Shown here: positions 10,047 to 16,343 of the stretch, piece by piece | Numbering within the stretch: the stretch's first letter is position 1 | Layout: every line of letters begins with the position of its first letter | Assembly (NCBI GenBank): GCA_001829455.1 | Contig: MIBH01000023.1 | Span: 34,077-72,604 of the forward strand | DNA length: 38,528 nt | From: Spirochaetes bacterium RBG_13_51_14 | Lineage (GTDB): Bacteria > Spirochaetota > UBA4802 > UBA5550 | Direction: 5' to 3' | Made by a program: the position numbers and the translations under genes | Notes under the pieces: generated by a model | The model's input: only the letters and a program-made list of their open reading frames with translations | Databases searched by the model: none | What the model was told of the DNA's origin: nothing

Positions 10047-10397
10047 TTAGGTGGTCTTTGACGCCAGGTATTGTTCCGCGCTTTCTATGCTGTCAAATAT
10101 CTTGAAAAAGGAGCTGATTTTCGCAATATCAAAGAGCTGCAATATTTTGGTGGTATTGCACACCACCACCATTTCATTATTATTTTCACTTATCTTGCGG
10201 CTGATGTTGATCAGCGAGCTAAGACCGGTTGAATCAATATAATACAGATTATTCAGATCCATAATGATGCTGCAATATCTGATTTCCTCGAGTTTTTCTT
10301 TTAAAATCTCTGTAATCTTCGGAGTTTTAACAAAATCCATCTCCTCGAACAGCAAAGAGAGTACGGAATAGGTGCCACGGTTCATTATTTGTACCAT
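10047..10397 (-). CDS. STAS-domain anti-sigma factor antagonist
   Basis: A 116-residue protein that is one STAS domain of the SpoIIAA/RsbV type. The diagnostic loop is present: DLNNLYYIDSTGLSSLI, with S56 (or T57) at the position phosphorylated by partner serine kinases. The N-terminal strand (YSVLSLLFEEMD) and the C-terminal helix (SIESAEQYLAS) fit. Such proteins sequester an anti-sigma kinase when unphosphorylated. No kinase or sigma gene adjoins it; the nearest ATPase of the right type is at 15126-16034 on the same strand, which makes that ATPase a candidate partner (inference). ATG at 10385 (MNRGTY) is an alternative start; neither start has a strong ribosome site. Confidence 0.9.
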   Translation of the reverse strand: MVQIMNRGTYSVLSLLFEEMDFVKTPKITEILKEKLEEIRYCSIIMDLNNLYYIDSTGLSSLINISRKISENNNEMVVVCNTTKILQLFDIAKISSFFKIFDSIESAEQYLASKTT

Positions 10398-12123: not shown

Positions 12124-13017
12124 TCACTCAGTCTTCGCCACGACCCGAAAACTGTCCATGATCTTCCGCATGACATGGCCGTTTGAGCGGTAGCCCTCGT
12201 TCGATGAAATAAGCCGTGCGTAATGGCTGAACGTACCGTTTACGAATACCCCCTCAATACCGGAATAGTTGGGAGTGCCGTTGCTCCTGAACGCATACAC
12301 AAGGCGGTCGTCGCCCTGCACGAGAGGCTCACGGACAAGGCCGTCATATCCGAGTGCGCCCTTCCAGTTCTCAGCCGCCTCGGTGCAGTTATTGAACTTG
12401 ACCGCGAATTTTTCACTGTCAACCGCGAAAAGGATATCATACGCATTCTCATTGTTTCCCGCGGTGCTCGATGTCTTCACCCCGAACAGGACCCCCTCGT
12501 AACGGTAATCAAGTCCCGCCCGATCGCGCTTCCTTATCACGGTTACCCGTCCGGGAACCTGAAAGGAGTAAAACATCATGTCGTTGATAATGGCGATGCC
12601 GGTGTTTGTCTGGAAAATAATCAGCGACGCGGATTCATTCATTGTCGTAAAACGCGGGCCGTTCTTTTTTTTCAGGGCATCCATGAGTTCCGTGGCCTTC
12701 ACCTGCGCCTGATATATCCTGTTGTTATCAGCCGGGAGCGCCCGTATTGATTTCAGCACTGAGAGGCCCTCCGTCACGCGGTGTTCTTGTATCAGTGCCG
12801 CACCGTAGTGCAGATAGTAATCAATACCCCGGGGTGTTACCGGCAGGAACCGGTATTCCCGTGCGTCGATGATGCGGATCTTTCCCGCCTGGTCGATGAA
12901 ATAGGTGTTTCCTTCCCGGTCGCGGAAAAATTTCCAGTCAGGCATCTGCGAAAGCAATGCAAGTGAGCCGGCGAGGACGAAAAGCGTGACGCATGTTTGT
13001 GTTAAACGCATATTCAT
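12124..13017 (-). CDS. exported or N-anchored protein of unknown function, last gene of the ATPase operon
   Basis: Not recognised. From ATG 13017 it has 297 residues, starting with a hydrophobic segment (LTQTCVTLFVLAGSLALLS) that is a signal peptide or an anchor. A WKFFRDREGNTYFIDQAGKIRI stretch follows, then a short helical region (about 65-115) of TPR-like appearance (YYLHYGAALIQEHRVTEGLSVLKSI), then a beta-rich domain (about 130-297) with aromatic strands. The start overlaps the upstream stop as ATGA, so it is translationally coupled to the tail-anchored protein before it. The open frame extends to 13044, but the coupled ATG is the better start. As part of the operon at 12124-16034 it may be the extracytoplasmic sensor or effector end of the pathway; this is inference. 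Confidence 0.8.
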   Translation of the reverse strand: MNMRLTQTCVTLFVLAGSLALLSQMPDWKFFRDREGNTYFIDQAGKIRIIDAREYRFLPVTPRGIDYYLHYGAALIQEHRVTEGLSVLKSIRALPADNNRIYQAQVKATELMDALKKKNGPRFTTMNESASLIIFQTNTGIAIINDMMFYSFQVPGRVTVIRKRDRAGLDYRYEGVLFGVKTSSTAGNNENAYDILFAVDSEKFAVKFNNCTEAAENWKGALGYDGLVREPLVQGDDRLVYAFRSNGTPNYSGIEGVFVNGTFSHYARLISSNEGYRSNGHVMRKIMDSFRVVAKTE

Positions 13018-14036
13018 AAAAGCTGGAACAGGATTATACCGCACAATATGATGAGGCCAACCACAATACCCAATATGTATATCAGCCGTTTATCAAAGAT
13101 GGTTGATTCACTCACAACCTCATCCATGGGCTGATCAAGCAGTATTTTAACATTCTCTTCCTCGAATATTTTAGCCAGCACTCCTTTGGCCACAAAAGCA
13201 TAGATCAGATAGCCGCCCTTTTCAAAGAATATCTTCGTTTTGACCCTTCCGGTTATCGGCATGCGCTCGCCCTCAACGTCGTAGGAGTTTAAGAGCTTCA
13301 TTATTTTTTCAGAAACCACGTCGCTTCCGGTCAGCATAACCTTGATCTTATCGCCGGGCATAAGGTCGCTCACGTTTTTCCCGTGCACGGGAGCGACTAC
13401 CGCCTTACCATCGATTACGTATTTCACCTCACGTTCGATTTTAATGATTCGCTCGTCTTCACGGGTGATTTCTGCCAATTCACTGCTCTTCCCACCCGGG
13501 ACATCAATCGGTATGCCAGTGAGCTCCAGTTCCATGGAGTTCGTCGATTCCATTTCGATCTGACATTTCACTGCGTCGCTGTTTATGGACTTCCCTATGA
13601 TTTCTGTTACTGTTTTCGTTAAATCATCGAGATTCTGCTCCTGCACGTCCGGGAATACGTCGTACCCGACAAAGGAGTCAATGAGAAAGTAGGTGAAATT
13701 CTGAGAATCAACCATGTCAGAGCCCTGCTTGTAGGCCAGCAAATCCCCGTTCAATGTTTTCCAGTCGTCAAAGATTCTCGTCTTCTCAAACAGAGTCGGC
13801 CGGTAAGATATGACTGATGTCACATTCGCAATATACTCCTGGATGTAGTTGAAAAATGCCAGGAATATTCCGGACATCCCTTTCTTCTCGGCAAGAAACT
13901 TGCCCTTCATCACGATGATGTCCAGGTACTGGCCGGCGGCCATTTCTTTGGCCTTGACGATATCGCCCCTGGTGTATTTCATCGCAATATCGATCATCCT
14001 GGTTTTTTCGCCCAATGAATCATATTGTTCAGTCAT
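13014..14036 (-). CDS. tail-anchored protein of unknown function
   Basis: Not recognised. 340 residues from ATG 14036, preceded by GGGAAAAG and overlapping the upstream gene by eight bases. There is no N-terminal signal. The soluble N-terminal part is helical (KYTRGDIVKAKEMAAGQYLDI, then FFNYIQEYIANVTSVI) and leads to a beta-rich middle (about 185-300) with VMPGDK-like turn motifs (SDLMPGDKIKVMLTGSD). The last 22 residues are a hydrophobic helix (IYILGIVVGLIILCGIILFQLL) with nothing behind it, so the protein is probably inserted by its tail with the bulk in the cytoplasm. It sits between cytosolic STAS/ATPase proteins and an exported protein, and could tether the circuit to the membrane (inference). 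An upstream ATG at 14081 is open but lies inside the preceding gene. Confidence 0.8.
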   Translation of the reverse strand: MTEQYDSLGEKTRMIDIAMKYTRGDIVKAKEMAAGQYLDIIVMKGKFLAEKKGMSGIFLAFFNYIQEYIANVTSVISYRPTLFEKTRIFDDWKTLNGDLLAYKQGSDMVDSQNFTYFLIDSFVGYDVFPDVQEQNLDDLTKTVTEIIGKSINSDAVKCQIEMESTNSMELELTGIPIDVPGGKSSELAEITREDERIIKIEREVKYVIDGKAVVAPVHGKNVSDLMPGDKIKVMLTGSDVVSEKIMKLLNSYDVEGERMPITGRVKTKIFFEKGGYLIYAFVAKGVLAKIFEEENVKILLDQPMDEVVSESTIFDKRLIYILGIVVGLIILCGIILFQLL

Positions 14037-14508
14037 GGTGCTTTTCCCGATGTTCAGACAAATATTTTTCCACAATCTCATACCTTTTATGAGGACTCAT
14101 GTTGAGCAGCTTTTTGACGCCCTGTATCATCTTCTGCTTGTATTTGAGTGACGTTTCAATGCTATAAATACCGTCCTTGGCAAGGCTGTCGGTAATGACA
14201 ACCCTGTCCGGCAGGATATTGAATACAAGCATCGGGCCCAGCACTCTGATCAGATTTTCAGGCACGACGTATTTCAGGGACAGCTTTAGTACTCCAATTT
14301 CAAGACGCCTGAGTATCCGGAAATTGCCAAACTTCTCCTGCGGAACGGCATGAAAATTTTTCGGATTATCAGTCAGTTGCACGATGATGCAATCGTCAAC
14401 TGGGGAGACGAGAACCCGCACGAAGGTATAGCTTGATTTATACGGCGACAGCAGGCCAAAGAGGCTGTCATCTTTAACCCGTGTTATATTTTTGGTCGAA
14501 GGTTTCAT
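14029..14508 (-). CDS. cytoplasmic protein of unknown function in the ATPase operon
   Basis: Not recognised. 159 residues, no signal or membrane segment. The first two thirds are beta-rich (SYTFVRVLVSPVDDCIIVQLTD, LRRLEIGVLKLSLKYVVPE, MLVFNILPDRVVITD); the end is helical and basic (YKQKMIQGVKKLLNMSPHKRYEIVEKYLSEHREKHHD). It may be a PilZ-like or other small beta-barrel regulator, but the PilZ RxxxR motif is not seen, so I do not assign it. A GAGAG site precedes the ATG. It lies 53 bases after the STAS-wHTH gene and overlaps the next gene by eight bases, so it belongs to the same transcription unit. Confidence 0.78.
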   Translation of the reverse strand: MKPSTKNITRVKDDSLFGLLSPYKSSYTFVRVLVSPVDDCIIVQLTDNPKNFHAVPQEKFGNFRILRRLEIGVLKLSLKYVVPENLIRVLGPMLVFNILPDRVVITDSLAKDGIYSIETSLKYKQKMIQGVKKLLNMSPHKRYEIVEKYLSEHREKHHD

Positions 14509-14561: not shown

Positions 14562-15113
14562 CTATAAGGCCCAAAAAATCCCGTCATCATGCTTTTTGAC
14601 AAGACGCATCTCGTTGAGATCATTCATTATCTTCTCCGTCTGATTACGCGGTCGCCCGGTGAATGTGGCCACGTCGTCCAGTGTTATCGACTTGTTGACT
14701 CTTATAAACTCAACAATATCCCGCTCTTGATCCGACAGAGGGCCGATATAGAACGCATTATTCTGGCAAATATTTTCCGTAATTACAACAATTTTTTTGT
14801 TTTTATAATTTGAATATGAGCGAAACACAAGGTCAATGTTAATTTCAGCGATCTCGGAGAAATTCTTCAATTTAACGTAAAACGGCCGGCCGGGTTCGCG
14901 GGATTCGAAGATCAATTTAACGAGCATTTCATCAATGAATGAAGAATCTATCACCTTTATCCCGGAAAAATCCAGAACCAGCGTCTCTTCCTCCTTTATG
15001 GAGCCGATGCTGTTTCTGATCGATTCATACATCACGCGGCCGACGGACCGGGTGATAAGATCAGGCGCTTTTTGATTCAGCTCATCTGCCTTTTTGCGAA
15101 TTGTGATTATCAT
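14562..15113 (-). CDS. STAS-like (DUF4325-type) domain protein with C-terminal winged helix
   Basis: 183 residues in two parts. Residues about 1-110 read as a STAS-like domain of the DUF4325 kind: ETLVLDFSGIKVIDSSFIDEML at 44-64 carries the VLDF..I.xxxSSFxDE signature of that group, which is usually encoded beside a histidine-kinase-type ATPase, exactly as here. Residues about 127-183 look like a winged helix: SDQERDIVEFI, then ITLDDVATFTGRPRNQTEKIMNDLNEMRLVKK, a helix-turn-helix followed by a wing. A DNA-binding output attached to the STAS-like domain would allow direct transcription control without a sigma factor (inference). GGAG lies six bases before the ATG, and the gene follows the ATPase gene by 12 bases. 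Confidence 0.82.
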   Translation of the reverse strand: MIITIRKKADELNQKAPDLITRSVGRVMYESIRNSIGSIKEEETLVLDFSGIKVIDSSFIDEMLVKLIFESREPGRPFYVKLKNFSEIAEINIDLVFRSYSNYKNKKIVVITENICQNNAFYIGPLSDQERDIVEFIRVNKSITLDDVATFTGRPRNQTEKIMNDLNEMRLVKKHDDGIFWAL

Positions 15114-15125
15114 ACCACGCTCCGT

Positions 15126-16034
15126 TTACCCGATCAAAGAAATCGAGATCTGGGTGCCGTCAAAATTGCTCAGGTTATTTTTTAAAAACAGGAACGATGA
15201 TCCGCTGGTCTTTTTGTGATACAGGTTTGAAATCGAGGCATCTCCCGACCTCAGGTATATTGATCCCCTCAGTTTTTCAGCGATCGCATTCACCTGACAG
15301 AGCCCATATCCGAACTCCCTCTTGCTCGATATGGGGGTCGTGAGAGCGAGCTCGATGAGATTGGCAGAAGAATCATAGGACACGTCGCAATTCTCAAAGC
15401 TCTTCACAATGCCGATACCCTGATCTCCGATGCACAGCCGCACGATATTCTCCTTTCCGACTGAATACGTCTGCATCGCCAGATAACCCGAGTCAAGGCT
15501 GTGTTCGTAGATATTCTGGCATATCTCCGAAATCACGGTCACAAAGTAGTCAACGATCCGCTCCGAGAGCCAATATTTTAAAATATGTTCGGCCCGCTTC
15601 CTGAAAACACCCACGATACCCGAGATAACCTGCACGCTCTCCCGTTCTTTGTTGGGGATTTCGGTGATTTCCAGCACCCGCTTGCTGAAAGAGCTTCTCT
15701 TTAACAGAAGTTTTTCATTAAGCCGTTCCGACACCTCGAACACACCGGCCTTGAAAAAATCCATGCGGTGCAAGTACTGATGAATATTGATGGGAATCCC
15801 CGTAAGTTTCAATTTTGTTCCGCTTTTCCGCAGATAACTTCTCCCGATCAGGAGCAGGGACAGCATGGAATAGGGTTCGATAAACGTGATCCGTGATAGA
15901 TTCAGCTCCTTCATTTCGCCGAGGATATTATCCTGGAGGTCGATCACGTACTCGAAATCATACGGCTCCTTGAACCGGTTGGGCACTATCAACACGCTTC
16001 TGTCTGTCATACCATCACGCACCGAATATAGCAT
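15126..16034 (-). CDS. STAS-like/HATPase regulatory kinase (anti-sigma type)
   Basis: 302 residues. The N-terminal part (about 25-100) resembles a STAS-like sensing domain (ITFIEPYSMLSLLLIGRSYL, LKLTGIPINIHQYLHRMDFF). The C-terminal part (about 140-290) is a GHKL ATPase: N-box with E170, N174 and H178 in ISEICQNIYEHS, G1 box GDQGIGI at 203-209, G2 box GYGLCQ at 242-247, and TSGSSFLFL closing the nucleotide pocket. There is no phospho-acceptor histidine or transmembrane segment, so it fits SpoIIAB/RsbW-like serine kinases or ATP-dependent binders rather than classical sensor kinases. It is the first gene of a five-gene operon ending at 12124; the next gene product is the likely partner. The ATG at 16034 lacks a strong ribosome site; ATG 16010 is an alternative. 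Confidence 0.88.
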   Translation of the reverse strand: MLYSVRDGMTDRSVLIVPNRFKEPYDFEYVIDLQDNILGEMKELNLSRITFIEPYSMLSLLLIGRSYLRKSGTKLKLTGIPINIHQYLHRMDFFKAGVFEVSERLNEKLLLKRSSFSKRVLEITEIPNKERESVQVISGIVGVFRKRAEHILKYWLSERIVDYFVTVISEICQNIYEHSLDSGYLAMQTYSVGKENIVRLCIGDQGIGIVKSFENCDVSYDSSANLIELALTTPISSKREFGYGLCQVNAIAEKLRGSIYLRSGDASISNLYHKKTSGSSFLFLKNNLSNFDGTQISISLIG

Positions 16035-16343
16035 AGAGGGCTTGCCATTAATTCTGCAGCGGACGAGACATAATGATATCGCCGGAGGGCCGCCGCCGCA
16101 GTAACAGTTTCCCCTTTCTATAATCGGTACAATAATCCTTGGTCTGAATTATTTCTTTATCATCCGCATGCGGGTCCACATGCCGGCCATCACGTTTTTA
16201 ATATAGCGTCGCACGAGCCGTGCATCCAAATTTTTCTTCTGCATTCATGAGCCGCACTCAAAAAAAAATCCGGCCTGATGAGATCGAGGCGCCGCATCGC
16301 GGTCATTTGCTGCGAGAGATGCCTGTTACCTCTGTAATACAAA
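16035..16343. other. intergenic region upstream of the ATPase operon
   Basis: About 300 bases between the groEL terminator and the ATPase gene, both on the minus strand. It should hold the promoter of the five-gene operon, but I cannot point to a clear -35/-10 pair. No coding frame or RNA gene was recognised. Confidence 0.45.

Follow-up and report, generated by a model that had tools for sequence, protein, structure and literature searches.

Does the ATPase-like protein encoded beside a fused STAS–winged-helix protein control DNA binding directly, or does the winged helix serve some other output? This question is raised by one gene in a 38,528-nt window of contig MIBH01000023.1 (Spirochaetes bacterium RBG_13_51_14, GCA_001829455.1), and all coordinates below are positions in this window. 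An earlier note, made from the DNA alone, had read the gene product as a STAS-like domain joined to a winged helix and had proposed that an ATPase would thereby control DNA binding without a sigma factor. We refer to the protein as P1.

14562..15113, minus strand: P1, CapS-like STAS(DUF4325)–winged-helix protein of 183 aa (ORF, Pfam, alignment, model, fold search, profile comparison)
14769..15113, minus strand: STAS-like domain of P1, residues ~1–115 (Pfam, model, fold search)
14940..14942, minus strand: Ser58 codon of P1, aligned with the CapS phosphoserine S54 and invariant in 38/38 (alignment; phosphosite from PMC13373217)
14565..14744, minus strand: winged-helix domain of P1, residues 124–183 (model, fold search)
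14610..14648, minus strand: recognition helix of P1, residues 156–168, acidic and poorly conserved (model, charge, conservation)

P1 is a real gene and more than chance. Its ORF on the minus strand opens with ATG and encodes 183 aa, and the plus-strand reading of 14562–15113 contains stops. Residues 39–71 match Pfam DUF4325 (PF14213; E 9.3e-6, 25.7 bits, cut-off 23), which overlaps the DUF4325-type STAS-like signature noted before at residues 44–64, and all 38 aligned orthologues match this family at E <= 0.1. The AlphaFold2 model, for which 38 orthologues were aligned, has high confidence along its whole length (mean pLDDT 91.8, pTM 0.86); a STAS fold comes first, and a winged helix with three helices comes after it. 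The C-terminal part is composed of helices 128–140, 145–152 and 156–168 and strands 172–174 and 180–182. In the fold search, residues 1–115/121 superpose on STAS proteins such as TM1442 (1vc1, Z 8.2, RMSD 2.2 over 91) and RsbS (6jhk, Z 7.6), and the matches of this part comprise anti-sigma antagonists and transporter STAS domains. Residues ~124–183 superpose on winged helices of the ArsR, MarR and Z-alpha kinds; one such match is CadC (3f72, Z 6.0, RMSD 0.9 Å over 60), and many further matches show values of 1.1–1.3 Å over 56–60 residues. Thus, the confident model, the Pfam DUF4325 match and the fold matches confirm the observed architecture: the structure prediction of the C-terminus that had been suggested for comparison with known folds yields a confident winged helix, in agreement with its proposed location at residues 127–183. 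Single-sequence searches were less informative. No Pfam HTH family reaches its cut-off in the window P1 (TrmB E 0.19, HVO_A0114 E 0.17), no NCBIfam family matches at E <= 1, the anti-sigma antagonist model TIGR00377 included, and a PDB sequence search with P1 alone gave nothing useful; CapS and VapS were reached only with the 38-sequence profile.

The adjacent gene encodes a kinase-like protein, HATP.

15126..16034, minus strand: HATP, CapK/VapK-like STAS-like + GHKL kinase-fold protein of 302 aa (Pfam, alignment, model, fold search, profile comparison), with the N box E170-x3-N174, DxGxG at 204–208 and GxGL at 242–245

HATP matches Pfam HATPase_c at E 8.2e-6. In its model (mean pLDDT 83.2), the N-terminal stretch has secondary structure of the STAS-like kind and is followed by a GHKL domain. 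The best structural matches of the GHKL part are SpoIIAB (1th8, Z 10.5, 126 residues), RsbW (6m37, Z 9.3), UsfX and SiaB (6kko, Z 8.5). SpoIIAB, RsbW and SiaB each act together with a STAS or STAS-like protein. The assignment of the STAS part is based on the CapK profile alignment and the secondary structure of the model, and the fold-search rows span residues 120–302 only. We aligned 31 of the 38 HATP orthologues, leaving out the rest for unclean starts, and the residues of the N box, DxGxG and GxGL motifs are invariant among them; Glu170 and Asn174, the latter corresponding to Asn218 of CapK, are present in 31/31. Position 21 aligns with the ssDNA-stacking Trp68 of CapK (Phe54 in VapK) in a region of uncertain alignment and is occupied by C in 13, F in 10 and L in 8 of the 31, with F in the window. 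A PDB search with the HATP profile found nothing at 0.01.

To place the pair in its genomic setting, we examined 59 genomes, comprising the own genome and relatives out to the phylum. P1 is present in 38 of them, in a single copy each: 6/6 in the genus, 13/14 in the rest of the family, 19/26 in the rest of the order and 0/13 elsewhere in the phylum. Three loci (L031–L033) come from the contigs of genomes G005, G002 and G003 and represent these genomes, so the 38 rows correspond to 38 genomes. Among 296 genomes of the phylum, full-length P1 is found in the same 38, as is HATP, and some other genomes match parts of P1. The survey for the same fusion beside HATPase genes, which had also been proposed, gave a uniform result: P1 adjoins the STAS–GHKL kinase gene in 38/38 loci. 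Two further genes always follow.

14029..14508, minus strand: 159-aa protein, function not assigned, conserved gene after P1 (synteny, alignment, profile searches)
13014..14081, minus strand: LIC10486-like protein with a hydrophobic C-terminal stretch read from its sequence, conserved fourth gene (NCBIfam, synteny, alignment)

The order HATP–P1–159–LIC10486, with all genes on the same strand, is kept in 38/38 loci. The HATP–P1 gap is mostly 0–20 nt and is larger in L035, L038, L042, L056 and L060; in the window, the HATP–P1 and P1–159 gaps are 12 and 53 nt, respectively. With a profile of the 159-aa protein, calculated from 25 of the 38 orthologues, a PDB search found nothing at 0.5, and Pfam offered no convincing family. 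For the LIC10486-like gene, the listed start at 14081 is probably too early and the true start is probably the Met codon at 14036, where the orthologues begin; starting there, it would overlap the last few bases of the 159-aa gene. Among the 22 of the 38 orthologues that were aligned, family searches gave only weak DUF4899 matches, in 4/22 members, and one weak Colicin-E1 match was also seen. LIC10486-like proteins are matched in 101/296 phylum genomes, often in several copies, of which the own genome has three. All sampled genomes of family f6 (G024, G028 and G033, each at least 90% complete) have LIC10486-like proteins and neither P1 nor the kinase.

The window also carries rpoA, secY, genes for the cell wall and, judged by sequence, groESL, so the module lies in the core chromosome and not in a defence island. 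The best reading is that HATP and P1 belong to a core, vertically inherited chromosomal operon in one spirochaete order. A classical STAS protein of the anti-sigma-antagonist type is encoded 4.6 kb from P1 (10047–10397, TIGR00377 above cut-off); it is near P1 in 6/38 loci, which are those of the genus, and a profile comparison between it and P1 gave nothing.

The most instructive comparison is with CapK and CapS (EMBO J 2026; E. roggenkampii WP_001567866.1/WP_001567865.1; structures 9Z71–9Z73; PMC13373217). In this pair, the GHKL kinase CapK phosphorylates the STAS–winged-helix repressor CapS at Ser54, after which the CapS dimer, for which the STAS face matters, dissociates and the operators are vacated (PMC13373217). 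The mechanism proposed in the earlier note is the one published for CapK/CapS in June 2026 (PMC13373217). In a PDB search, the P1 profile finds VapS (9z7o) at E 2.1e-4 and a 185-aa 'MarR family regulator' (9z72) at E 0.011, the latter aligned over both the STAS and the winged-helix parts. We compared the P1 family with four CapS sequences, E. roggenkampii CapS and three CapS-like proteins from plasmid loci, and the profiles align over columns 20–176, covering both domains (E 5.6e-8 as a single comparison, probability 94.7). The HATP family aligns with three CapK sequences over columns 20–304 (E 2.5e-14, again for a single comparison, probability 98.3). Both proteins are thus homologous to their counterparts over most of their length, and the gene arrangement is also alike, with a STAS–GHKL kinase gene adjacent to that of a STAS–winged-helix protein of ~182 aa. 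HATP keeps the kinase active-site Asn, and P1 has the D-x-S-F-x-x-E motif with the phosphoserine position: Ser54 of CapS aligns with Ser58, which is S in 38/38, and Asp56, Asp61 and Glu62 are each conserved in 38/38. The invariance of Ser58 and the flanking motif shared with CapS show that the switch half is kept in P1. Ser57 had been considered as the phosphoacceptor from SpoIIAA numbering and the VapS alignment and was dropped when the CapS sequence alignment pointed to Ser58; position 57 is S in 26, T in 1, P in 6 and A in 5 of the 38.

There are clear differences as well. HATP lacks the N-terminal HTH of CapK, starts within the STAS-like part and is shorter (302 against 368 aa), with no counterpart of the CapK residues before ~66. 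P1 has a DUF4325-type STAS domain, whereas the CapS proteins of E. roggenkampii and V. gigantis are unmatched by Pfam DUF4325. The described CapK/CapS and VapK/VapS pairs come from mobile immune operons, and an immune operon lies downstream of CapK/CapS in 348/443 loci (PMC13373217); the P1 locus has no immune operon but the 159-aa and LIC10486-like genes instead in 38/38, in the core chromosome of one spirochaete order.

Several of these features are shared with VapK and VapS. HATP consists of STAS and GHKL parts only, as does VapK (PMC13373217), and P1 has the DUF4325-type STAS in common with VapS. HATP and P1 are therefore placed between CapK/CapS and VapK/VapS. However, P1 ends in a winged helix, and VapS, whose complex with VapC is structure 9Z7O, ends in a short inhibitory tail (PMC13373217). 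An adjacent PIN toxin gene is absent from the P1 loci (38/38, judged by homologues of the genes of the window), and Pfam and PDB profile searches found no PIN match in the 159-aa product of the gene after P1. Operons of the vapKSC type, with HATPase, DUF4325 and PIN-domain genes, occur separately in the same order, at L098 858–2620 (G037) and L097 369–2269 (G012); the match of the L098 DUF4325 protein to VapS 9z7o has an E-value of 3.5e-13. Compared with SpoIIAB/SpoIIAA and RsbW/RsbV, the folds of the GHKL kinase and the STAS partner are the same; however, the P1 operon has no sigma factor, and HATP and P1 each carry an extra domain.

A major difference between P1 and CapS lies in the winged helix, where the CapS DNA contacts and wing glycines are lacking. 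Position 158 of P1, which corresponds to Asn145 of CapS, is N in 0/38 and E/D in 24/38, and position 164, which corresponds to Lys151, is K/R in 4/38 and E/D in 24/38. The wing is several residues shorter than in CapS and has no conserved Gly-Gly column (glycines 169–170 in CapS), with glycines there in some members. The 13-residue recognition helix has a median net charge of −2 and is positive in 0/38. As controls, we used HTH domains of the same genomes, 30 loci per family among the matches listed: ArsR-type recognition helices are positive in 30/30, and those of the MarR type in 4/30, with a median of −1. Since MarR domains of the same genomes are also near-neutral to acidic, the charge of the helix is a hint against DNA binding rather than a decisive sign. 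Conservation gives a sharper contrast. Among 627 P1 pairs at 28–50% identity, the mean identity is 0.20 in the recognition helix, 0.38 in helices 1–2 and 0.46 in the STAS domain, making the recognition helix the least conserved segment, and it is less alike than helices 1–2 in 566/627 pairs. In CapS pairs at 31–45% identity, by contrast, the recognition helix (0.57–0.79) is more alike than helices 1–2 (0.21–0.36) in 6/6. The four CapS sequences were found with a winged-helix fragment, so a conserved winged helix is favoured in that set, but the comparison of helix 3 with helices 1–2 is less affected since both lie inside the query fragment. In addition, E. roggenkampii CapS passes the Pfam HTH_24 cut-off, whereas the window P1 reaches that of no HTH family. 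Basic residues are conserved at the start of the P1 wing (position 170 R/K 38/38, 173 R/K 38/38, 174 R/K 28/38), and these could grip the DNA backbone. Overall, the DNA-reading surface of P1 looks worn away. The earlier proposal is therefore upheld in its first half, a kinase-controlled STAS–winged-helix protein, where the architecture, the ATPase next door and the sigma-free kind of control are right; control of DNA binding is its weaker half, because the recognition helix is acidic, without CapS contacts and poorly conserved. The note had named a missing basic surface for DNA as an argument against itself, and on this point the C-terminus is indeed a winged helix, with a net acidic recognition helix.

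We also searched for operators and promoters. The CapS operators are TTAA palindromes located between capK and capS and after capS (PMC13373217). In the 38 P1 loci, palindromes of this type show no excess, with 2 narrow and 1 wide against 2.0 and 2.2 expected.

16117..16150, minus strand: block AATTCAG-N14-TACCGATNATNGA upstream of the kinase gene (genus comparison, genome search)

This block is common to 6/6 genus genomes, with at most one mismatch in the tested core, occurs once in its own genome and is not palindromic; it may be a promoter or a binding site. Two inverted repeats lie upstream of HATP, one of them terminator-like and resembling the groEL terminator. The promoter scan was near shuffle level.

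Because the CapS DNA-contact features fail in P1, we did not file it as a CapS but placed it in the CapK/CapS–VapK/VapS group. HATP and P1 most likely act like CapK and CapS as far as phosphorylation. In this reading, HATP would bind the STAS domain of P1 with its GHKL domain and phosphorylate Ser58; unphosphorylated P1 would be held via its STAS face in a homodimer or a partner complex, which phosphorylation would break. The winged helix would then be the output arm, more likely docking on a protein than on an operator since the DNA-contact residues are gone, and the best candidate partners are the 159-aa and LIC10486-like proteins. As a whole, this reading, a kinase–substrate pair of the CapK/CapS–VapK/VapS kind in a core chromosomal module, stands in our judgement at an even balance. 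The repressor alternative, in which P1 dimers bind an operator, probably at the operon's own promoter, until phosphorylation of Ser58 by HATP separates the dimer and raises transcription, is somewhat unlikely. It draws on the homology to CapS over both domains, the invariant phosphoserine position, the adjacent kinase gene, a published mechanism (PMC13373217), the basic residues 170, 173 and 174 and the conserved genus block upstream of the kinase gene. Against this, the CapS contacts are not kept and the recognition helix is acidic and variable, the gaps where CapS has its two operators are only 12 and 53 nt in the window, and the genus block is non-palindromic while the sole other strong upstream inverted repeat resembles the groEL terminator. 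A protein output of the winged helix is thus somewhat ahead of another mode of DNA binding.

Two further mechanisms were considered. P1 could, as VapS does in VapKSC, use its STAS face and C-terminus to block an effector from a neighbouring gene, and phosphorylation would release P1. VapS is the nearest solved structure to the P1 STAS domain by sequence, the vapKSC-type proteins of L097 and L098 likewise have a DUF4325 match, and HATP has no N-terminal HTH, like VapK (PMC13373217); but with no PIN nuclease beside P1, a 159-aa product without a Pfam or PDB match and a folded winged helix in place of a short tail, we regard this as unlikely. Less probable still is a sigma-factor partner switch with P1 as an anti-sigma antagonist carrying an added domain and HATP as the anti-sigma factor that it frees or holds. 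The closest folds, SpoIIAB, RsbW and UsfX for HATP and TM1442 and RsbS for P1, fit such a switch, and 22 other HATPase_c_2 matches in the genome make it likely that sigma partner switches are present there. However, the NCBIfam antagonist families match the STAS protein at 10047–10397 and not P1, the conserved four-gene block contains no sigma-factor gene, and HATP has its own STAS-like domain, as do CapK and VapK.

Within the preferred reading, a kinase–substrate pair with a docking winged helix, we tentatively suggest a third output of the CapK/VapK switch: a core operon in which a winged helix that no longer reads DNA would relay phosphorylation to the 159-aa protein and the membrane-anchored LIC10486-like protein. 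In this family, a kinase–substrate core known from mobile immune operons is a stable chromosomal component across an entire order. Its neighbours are housekeeping genes and two genes without a characterised product, and it has retained the residues of the switch while losing those that read DNA. Should the winged helix act on a protein rather than on DNA, the module would serve more than immune control and could help to reveal what the LIC10486-like proteins do across the phylum. Literature searches and the text of PMC13373217 gave no report of this family, the main text of that paper mentions neither spirochaetes nor DUF4325, and a review of STAS-only proteins (PMC8256260) has no mention of helix-turn-helix, winged or DNA binding.

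Finally, we looked for viral relatives of P1 and CapS. None were found for P1 or for one CapS query, the other CapS search gave one locus (L202), and a CapS fragment had no match in the phage collection. On the Acinetobacter radioresistens plasmid pARA1 (L200, 2650–3240), a CapS-like protein has Cys at the phosphoserine position and no CapK-like gene upstream; it is possibly an orphan that lost its kinase.
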